DNA from: a virus
Reading direction: 5' to 3' (one strand)
DNA length: 37,474 bases
IMG/VR virus record: IMGVR_UViG_3300006071_000035
Span: 1-37,474 of that record
Part shown: piece by piece, positions 7,104-32,424 of the stretch
How positions within the stretch are numbered: position 1 is the first letter of the stretch
How the letters are laid out: every line of letters begins with the position of its first letter
Notes under the pieces: model-generated
The model's input: the letters and a program-made list of their open reading frames with translations, nothing else
Databases searched by the model: none
What the model was told of the DNA's origin: nothing
Position numbers and translations under genes: made by a program

Positions 7104-7307
7104 TTAACAACCACACATTTTTAAAAATTCATCTTTATCAAAAATAACATGTTCTGCATTAAATTTATTAATCATATTATCTGCTATTTCTTTTCTATTT
7201 TCTTTATCCTTTACCATCAAAAGAAGCTCCGCTACACCGGTAACCATATCTCTATCGTTCTCATGTTCATCATATTCTTCTTTTATCAGGTCTTTAAGTT
7301 TTATCAT
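7104..7307 (-). CDS. Small acidic protein with a T4-type capsid-targeting-like N-terminus
   Basis: A 67-residue protein. I chose the ATG at 7307 because TATAGGAGATAAT lies directly upstream, a clear GGAG ribosome-binding site, and because it starts one base after the previous stop. An upstream ATG at 7340 would overlap that gene by 32 bases. The N-terminus MIKLKDLIKEEYDE is nearly the same as that of the 2H phosphoesterase at 24216-24746 (MIKLKKLLKE). Both resemble T4 internal-protein capsid-targeting peptides, which are cut after (L/I)-x-E. The rest is a charged helical protein ending C-G-C. Possible virion internal protein (inference). Confidence 0.6.
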   Translation of the reverse strand: MIKLKDLIKEEYDEHENDRDMVTGVAELLLMVKDKENRKEIADNMINKFNAEHVIFDKDEFLKMCGC

Positions 7308-26838: not shown

Positions 26839-27008
26839 CTGTAGCGGTAGGAGTCGAACCATACAAAGGGAGATTCGGAAAGTAACATAATCGCTTGCAA
26901 GCTGGTGGTCAACCCCATATTACTTTTCTATTTCTTTATCCCCGCCTTCGAGACGAGAAGGTGTGTTTGCCTGGTTATAACAGAGATAACCATTTTCACC
27001 ACGCTACA
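26839..27008 (-). ncRNA. 169-nt tRNA-like RNA with large insertions
   Basis: TGTAGCG (5') and CGCTACA (3') form a 7-bp acceptor stem. A canonical T-loop TTCGACT precedes the acceptor strand with stem arm CCTAC, but the opposing arm GTATGG needs a bulge. The end is discriminator G then CA, like the tRNAs nearby. Inside, a D-like stem (GTG/CAC) would enclose a hairpin GGTTAT-CTCTGTT-ATAACC. A CCTTC/GAAGG stem-loop sits in the anticodon position. An ~80-base variable domain contains a 10-bp stem (AAAAGTAATAT with ATGTTACTTT). About 90 bases longer than a normal tRNA. No amino-acid identity is assigned. Confidence 0.6.
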
Positions 27009-28631: not shown

Positions 28632-28706
28632 TGGCGGTCTATAAGGGTTACGCTCCCTTTACTTCTGCGTGACAGGCAGATATGATAACTACTTCACTAA
28701 TAGACC
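28632..28706 (-). tRNA. tRNA-Asp(GUC) with noncanonical T-loop
   Basis: Acceptor GGTCTAT/ATAGACC, anticodon stem TCTGC/GCAGA with loop CTGTCAC (GTC), discriminator G and an encoded CCA. The T-arm is AAGGG-AGCGTAA-CCCTT: position 54 is A, 55 is G and 58 is T instead of T, T and A. The D-loop has GTAG in place of GTGG, i.e. A18 opposite G55. Confidence 0.85.
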
Positions 28707-30056: not shown

Positions 30057-30066
30057 TTTTTGTTTG

Positions 30067-30138
30067 CGCTTTCCGAGAATTACGATATCTCGACCCCATC
30101 GTTAACAGCGATGTGCTCTGCCCCTGAGCTAGGAAAGC
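30067..30138 (-). tRNA. tRNA-Asn(GUU), noncanonical T-loop
   Basis: Acceptor GCTTTCC/GGAAAGC, D-arm GCTC/GAGC with GGGG loop, anticodon stem CATCG/CGATG with loop CTGTTAA (GTT). The T-arm is GAGAT-ATCGTAA-TTCTC: A54 and T58 in place of T54 and A58, and T53 faces T61. A second, canonical tRNA-Asn lies at 30377-30448. Discriminator G then CA. Confidence 0.82.
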
Positions 30139-30791: not shown

Positions 30792-31715
30792 ATAAAAATA
30801 AGGATGAGAATACTCCATATTGTGAACCAGCTTTAGAAAGATTATTTGTTTCCTTCCGTTTCCACACCCTTTTGAGATGTACCAATTCAATGTGGGTTAA
30901 TTGAGTCAACCAATCTTTGAGTTATAAACTACTCTCTTTTTACTACGCTTCTTCAAATCTGCCGACCTGATTAAACCTTGCGGGTCTAGAAGTTTTTCGA
31001 AAGAATCACAGACTTCTTGCGGAAGTATCGTGGCTGAGAACGGCTCTCAACTATGTACACACCTTTCGTTTATAACTGGCAAACACTTAAGCTTTAAATT
31101 TAATTTATGGTTTGCACCGAAAGCAAATTATAAGTTTAGTTTGTAGAATTATTCAAGTAGTGGTTTGCCACCAGCTCCGTTATCTTTTGAACAACAGAAT
31201 ACTATACTACTCGATGCAATATCCCTATTGCGTTATTTTGAGTCATCTTCGAATATAGGTTTTGGTAAACTCTATATAAGGATAGTAACAGCACCACCTG
31301 TACACAGTCTTATCTTACGTCCTTTCGGATAGCTTGATGTTAAGACCACTCTTATAATGAATACCGCAATAATGTAAAGGGATTAAGTTTACACTTCTTA
31401 CTGATATTCTATGGGTTATTCTTATTGGTGTTCCCACCTCAACCAAAGTATCTACAATACCCCAGTTACTCAAACTCTTCGATGATAGTGTTACCCCCAT
31501 CTACAAAGCCCAAATAATATCCCACTTGCCTACTCAAGCTAATCTCTCCTTACGGGGAGAGTAGCCGCAAATGCACCACTTAAGTACACTCACTTTATCC
31601 TACTTTCGTAGTTTATTTAACCACCATAGGCGGCGGTTATCTATTATGTAACACAAGGTTACTAGATAGAATATTTTTAATAATGTTAAAGAACTACTTC
31701 GTTGTTATATATATG

Positions 31716-32014: not shown

Positions 32015-32020
32015 ATATTG

Positions 32021-32351
32021 TGGAGATGACGAGACTCGAACTCGTGTCTTACAAAGAACTAATAATACCAGCATATCACACGTTTAGGTTAAAGTTTAAT
32101 CTTATAAACTTTCCAAAATAATTGAGGTCGTATGGTTAGTACAACTTTCCACCAATATATTGTTTAGGTACAACATATAAAACCTTTGTAGGCACTTCTG
32201 TTACTAGGCGTATGTGCACCGGCCCTATTGTTGCTAACTAAGCTATCGCTAAATCAGCACCTACGAAGTCCATAAGGTCTGCGAAGGTCATTGTTGACAT
32301 TTCGTCGTTTATTGTTTTGTGCAGATTTAAGGAGAACTAGCACTTCTCTCC
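32021..32351 (-). ncRNA. ssrA: tmRNA (ssrA) candidate
   Basis: A 331-nt RNA closed by GGAGA/TCTCC and a canonical T-arm ACGAG-TTCGAGT-CTCGT, ending A then CA like the tRNAs. Between these ends is a reading frame starting at a GCA resume codon (GCA GAC CTT) that encodes ADLMDFVGADLAIA and stops at TAG, a typical length and Ala-rich end for a trans-translation tag. The pair at position 3:70 is A-U rather than the G-U that AlaRS prefers. Pseudoknots were not drawn. A strong promoter lies 74 bases upstream. Confidence 0.7.
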
Positions 32352-32424
32352 ACGTGTGGTACTACTATTTACATTGCAATCAATTCCATAGCATCCCCAT
32401 TATTTCAATGAACTCTTTCTCTTA

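Follow-up and report, generated by a model that had tools for sequence, protein, structure and literature searches.

What kind of RNA has the ends of a tRNA and large insertions in between? The question is raised by a 170-nt minus-strand element (27008 to 26839) of an IMG/VR virus record known only from metagenome sequence, of which the whole 37,474-nt stretch analysed is referred to as the window. This tRNA-like RNA is flanked by a 69-aa ORF on one side and a 342-aa ORF on the other, with the TAG stop of the upstream 69-aa ORF falling within the 5' strand of its acceptor, and occupies the end of a minus-strand cluster that also comprises 22 tRNAs, a tmRNA and a GOLLD RNA. While these neighbours are called by ARAGORN or Rfam, the tRNA-like RNA itself is called by neither. 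The comparison with tRNA and tmRNA models that the preliminary description of the locus had proposed gave no Rfam match to it, including none with the curated model of canonical tRNA (RF00005).

Anatomy of the tRNA-like RNA

The RNA is composed of the following features, where R1 denotes the covariance model of the phage RNA:

26839..27008, minus: whole tRNA-like RNA, position 1 to discriminator G73 (165.5 bits with model R1)
27002..27008, minus: acceptor 5' strand TGTAGCG, with U1-A72 and G2-C71 (covariation, helix 1)
26840..26846, minus: acceptor 3' strand CGCTACA (covariation)
26839..26839, minus: discriminator G73, then CA as in local tRNAs (loop statistics and local tRNA ends)
26963..26999, minus: D arm, stem GTG/CAC, Leu-like loop with GG (alignment and covariation)
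26992-26986 with 26978-26972, minus: lineage-specific 7-bp hairpin TGGTTAT/ATAACCA in the D arm
26945..26961, minus: anticodon arm CCTTC-TCGTCTC-GAAGG (covariation and loop statistics)
26954-26952, minus: G34 U35 C36 of the anticodon-like loop
26866..26944, minus: variable-arm domain, 79 nt (alignment and covariation)
26867..26871, minus: 3' strand of the V1 stem, partner 26943-26939 (GGGGA) (helix 4, 95.5% of cells paired)
26879..26926, minus: V2 region, in which stem 26926-26917 with 26888-26879 encloses the UUGA hairpin and the palindrome
26916-26904, minus: hairpin GGGG-UUGA-CC(A)CC inside V2
26902-26893, minus: palindrome GCTTGCAAGC inside V2
26847..26864, minus: T arm GTA(T)GG-TTCGACT-CCTAC with a bulged U (covariation)

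The cloverleaf of the element is complete, and its variable arm (V1) is elongated into a structured domain located, as in type-II tRNAs, between the T arm and an anticodon arm that is itself intact. This domain contains an internal loop, the V2 stem and the UUGA hairpin, together with a palindromic hairpin in phages. The tRNA-type RNA with interior insertions that had been noticed from the letters of the window is real, and the observation is larger than first reported, the RNA being one of a conserved family. Likewise, the perfect 7-bp acceptor (TGTAGCG/CGCTACA, 7/7 paired), the local N73-CA ending (G73, then CA, as for most local tRNAs), the extra D-loop hairpin (TGGTTAT/ATAACCA) and the variable domain of ~80 nt with its own stem (79 nt, 10-bp inner stem) were all found as described. 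The T-loop was correctly given as canonical (TTCGACT), but the bulged U in the T stem (GTA-U-GG/CCTAC) had gone unmentioned, and the type-II placement of the arm and the invariant GUC loop with G73 had been missed.

A 16-codon frame (GCA AAC ... TAA), previously considered suggestive, does exist, but several relatives (L010, L011, L017 and L021) stop after 11 or 12 codons. Because codons change as base pairing requires and stops shift, we regard the frame as chance, and a tag-encoding mini-tmRNA was rejected since the frame is not conserved. Both tmRNA and the tRNA-like RNA have tRNA-like ends and an inserted domain; however, tmRNA has its anticodon arm replaced and codes for a tag, whereas the arm is retained here and no frame is conserved. 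In line with the earlier view that the element is not a tmRNA, the window has a separate one (32020-32398, minus), with an unusually long tag (DEMSTMTFADLMDFVGADLAIA) whose DEMSTMT start is kept in related phages.

Relatives in phages and Bacteroidota chromosomes

In a scan of both strands for its signature (7 Watson-Crick acceptor pairs, T arm, span 110-220), the window had exactly one match, this RNA, and 60 Markov-resampled windows had none; chance hairpins were rejected on this ground. Since the RNAfold energy of the RNA alone is unremarkable (z -1.3), the reality of the structure rests on covariation. Homologues were gathered via the neighbouring ORF, the 69-aa ORF and DNA patterns, and 40 distinct sequences from IMG/VR phage contigs were aligned with MAFFT (alignment A1). 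The 42-pair structure is paired in 97.8% of alignment cells, with two-sided changes at 30/42 pairs; for the acceptor (helix 1) these values are 100% and 6/7 pairs. The covariation score was 0.451 compared to 0.139 in shuffles and 0.05-0.10 (at most 0.102) in slid controls. The alignment holds acceptor, D, anticodon, V1, V2, UUGA, palindromic and T helices, and the main ones were recovered independently by RNAalifold. Both the covariation in related phages and the conservation across relatives, on which the preliminary description had made its reading depend, are thus seen in 40 distinct phage homologues, and we hold the existence and structure of the family with very high confidence.

Applied to the same loci, model R1 gave at least 124 bits for complete members and at most 41 bits for ordinary tRNAs. 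Phage contigs carry one full copy each, plus two weak extra matches. At the corresponding site of two closely related contigs (L007 and L008) the RNA is missing, indicating that it is dispensable or mobile; L013 also shows no copy, but this contig is cut close to the site. Palindromes (GCUUGCAAGC, GCUAGCUAGC, GCAUGCAUGC, AGCCGGCU, GCUCGAGC, GCUGCAGC) are present in most phage members and absent from three, and as scored on phage members they are suggestive of homodimerisation. A partial match at window positions 7185-7209 consists of A-rich sequence and was taken as chance; the same verdict was reached for UAUGGGUUGACCACUAUAG, a pattern match in the leaders of L108, L112-L114, L116 and L119. 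Blastn against named phage or plasmid records returned no credible match to the RNA. None of the papers searched describes such an RNA family. Although this does not establish novelty, the family is apparently undescribed so far.

Chromosomal relatives surfaced only with the covariance model and not with an exact-pattern scan of bacterial genomes, whose 37 matches were unrelated, mostly G+C-rich and taken as chance. R1 matched in 30/296 Bacteroidota genomes. A second model built from these matches (R2) detected 48 copies of at least 99.5 bits in the 30 carrier genomes, compared to at most 68 bits for ordinary tRNAs, while 0/299 Pseudomonadota and 0/249 Bacillota genomes had a match at E 1e-19 or better. 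The Bacteroidota copies are 108-195 nt long and often in tandem. Their outer cloverleaf covaries as well, in an alignment that is model-fitted and hence leans towards the structure. An unrooted tree of 80 sequences has a single branch (100/99) dividing phage from cellular copies, which fits one old transfer. The tRNA-like RNA family is, with high confidence, common to phages and Bacteroidota chromosomes.

In 20 of the 30 carriers, a regulator of the AsnC/Lrp type lies divergent from the RNA gene at a distance of 122-214 nt (other orientations, 0); the adjacency is missing in the remaining 10/30. The regulator has the Pfam domains AsnC_trans_reg and AsnC-type HTH, and its best NCBIfam model is AsnC, below the cut-off of that model. 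Some other cellular copies are found near panC and panD (aspartate decarboxylase), and a promoter-like TAnnTTTG box occurs no more than 60 nt upstream of 22/48 cellular copies. A chromosomal family beside AsnC-type regulators could not have been shown by the earlier reading, which had the window sequence only.

Identity elements and likeness to known tRNAs

Among 80 distinct members, G34 is present in 79, U35 in 80, C36 in 80, C38 in 79 and G73 in 80. The GUC triplet is kept in 79/80, one cellular copy having CUC and one phage copy A38; G2-C71 is found in 79/80. G73, G34, U35, C36 and C38 are the five strong aspartate identity determinants (review, PMC9976931), and the family carries all of them. 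The first pair is U1-A72 in 78/80 and A1-U72 in 2/80, so that the G1-C72 of bacterial tRNA-Asp occurs in none of the 80, and many copies do not have G10. Position 33 is C in 33, U in 38, A in 8 and G in 1, while at position 37 a pyrimidine occurs in 76/80 and a purine in only 4/80; the U33 and purine 37 of decoding tRNAs are thus mostly lost from the family, which also does not have their short variable loop. The loop-reading script favours GUC when placing the loop, but the unbiased MAFFT alignment gives the same register.

Retention of the AspRS set, combined with loss of U33 and purine 37 in most copies, is consistent with an RNA that AspRS selects and the ribosome does not. Based on these patterns, the RNA is quite probably non-decoding, and we favour, with less assurance, that it is charged with aspartate, as its conservation would suggest. 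Bacterial GatCAB recognises U1-A72 in tRNA-Asn (PMC4206432), and because the family has the same first pair, the Asp-RNA might be amidated by GatCAB, which we consider possible but doubtful.

Compared to known systems, the RNA shares G34 U35 C36 C38 G73, G2-C71 and the cloverleaf with tRNA-Asp (GUC), but differs in its large type-II domain, its U1-A72, the loss in most copies of U33/A37 and its escape from ARAGORN and Rfam; it also has no G1-C72, a pair that is strict in bacterial tRNA-Asp and aids AspRS. With GatCAB-route tRNA-Asn and transamidosome substrates it has U1-A72 and the predicted charging with Asp in common, whereas GUC instead of GUU, the extra domain and an apparently non-decoding nature set it apart. 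It also differs from tRNA-Sec and allo-tRNAs, having 7+5 bp and GUC rather than a 12-13 bp helix of the 8/4, 8/5 or 9/3 type. The closest concept is tRNA-Other of Bacillus cereus, a pseudo-tRNA outside translation with a regulatory effect, reported from one organism, where it is on a genomic island and part of larger transcripts (PMC3399842). R2 found 0/249 in the Bacillota sample.

Candidate roles

With roughly even chances of being right, the best explanation is a conserved non-decoding aspartyl-tRNA mimic of Bacteroidota that is also present in large phages. Host AspRS would charge the RNA with Asp, the altered loop and bulky arm would exclude it from the ribosome, U1-A72 would make the Asp-RNA acceptable to GatCAB, possibly yielding Asn-RNA, and the variable-arm domain may bind a partner or, in phages, pair with a second copy. 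Because the cellular gene is usually divergent from an AsnC-type regulator, the likely role would be to sense or handle the state of aspartate/asparagine charging, and phages may carry the RNA in their tRNA clusters to keep or redirect this role during infection. Counting against an aspartyl mimic, G1-C72 is absent, G10 is often lost, and the type-II arm with G73 would fit SerRS too. SerRS is known not to read the anticodon, and a seryl-accepting type-II tRNA-like RNA would therefore leave the fixed GUC and C38 unexplained. We consider this reading improbable, even though SerRS does use both the long arm and G73 (PMC7609411).

About as improbable is a working, odd tRNA-Asp isoacceptor for GAY codons. 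The GUC loop, complete cloverleaf, T-loop and tRNA-type 3' end agree with it, but only 38/80 members have U33 and no more than 4/80 a purine at 37, the arm is 80 nt long, and the phage already has a tRNA-Asp(GUC) at 28632-28706. Somewhat less remote, yet still unlikely, is a decoy or cleavage-proof bait against tRNA-targeting defence (anticodon nucleases on GUN or Asp tRNAs), in which the phage RNA would soak up the nuclease and its altered loop resist cutting. Phage tRNAs with altered anticodon loops evade such defences (PMC10264068), the element is at the end of phage tRNA arrays, and the loop UCGUCUC is close to fixed among phage members (31/40). However, a phage decoy leaves unexplained why 30/296 Bacteroidota genomes have chromosomal copies, for the most part next to an AsnC-type regulator, and the bases conserved in the loop make up the AspRS set rather than the full tRNA-Asp loop. 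Least probable by far is the spliced form raised in the preliminary description, a tRNA whose variable arm holds a small intron or mobile insertion, excision of which would give a normal tRNA. While the insertion varies greatly in length among cellular copies (108-195 nt in all), no intron family matched, the arm and the tRNA form a single continuous system of covarying helices, and the loop is abnormal as an anticodon loop even without the insertion.

Returning to the aspartyl mimic, GatB is present in 30/30 carriers and 32/40 non-carriers, as predicted, which is weak evidence; GatCAB is common anyway and the genomes are not independent. AsnB was over the cut-off in 26/30 carriers compared to 25/40 non-carriers, and AsnA in 3/30 compared to 1/40. 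The predicted absence of AsnA/AsnB from carriers was not found, and because AsnB is not missing, replacement of asparagine synthetase by the RNA is not supported. A more tentative and rather doubtful extension would make the family a dedicated carrier RNA for Asp-to-Asn conversion or sensing outside translation, loaded by AspRS, amidated by GatCAB, controlled by the AsnC-type regulator and captured by large phages, where it may dimerise via a palindromic loop. If true, large phages would use a captured RNA to steer host Asp/Asn metabolism, and a bacterial RNA family missed by standard tools would be a tRNA-like adaptor with an amino-acid function outside decoding, syntenic with an asparagine-type regulator and carried by many large phages. 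This bears on two questions, namely why tRNA-type genes are so numerous in large phages and whether metabolic carriers or sensors exist among aminoacylated RNAs.

Several other RNA genes of these phages are unusual. GOLLD RNA (RF02032; window 30801-31214, minus) is likewise phage-borne and near tRNA islands, but its structure is unrelated to the tRNA-like RNA; it was over the cut-off in 13/50 contigs searched, including the four longest, and is a distinct RNA that forms homo-oligomers (PMC12286853). The window tRNA-Asp (28632-28706, minus) and one tRNA-Asn (30066-30138, minus) have no TTC-type T-loop (GGGAGCGTAACCC; GAGATATCGTAATTCTC), as is also the case for the tRNA-Asp of L031, so that the local canonical tRNA-Asp is itself unusual. 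Most tRNA genes here encode N73-C-A and then A, an incomplete CCA end that is by far the commonest. Oversized tRNA-like genes of 103-148 nt with weak R1 matches were seen at L034:2563-2665, L057:2490-2592, L109:4012-4114, L118:6268-6415 and L122:7047-7194. A tRNA-rich contig that also carries the tRNA-like RNA has a permuted tmRNA (RF04321; L123:634-855, minus). Finally, tRNA-Leu(UAA)-like genes at L031:12502-12613 and L058:2326-2436 (minus) have ~26 nt inserted in the anticodon loop; the insert pairs as a hairpin (TTAACAC...GTGTTAA), its removal leaves a normal CTTAAAA loop, and it is possibly a short tRNA intron in phages.
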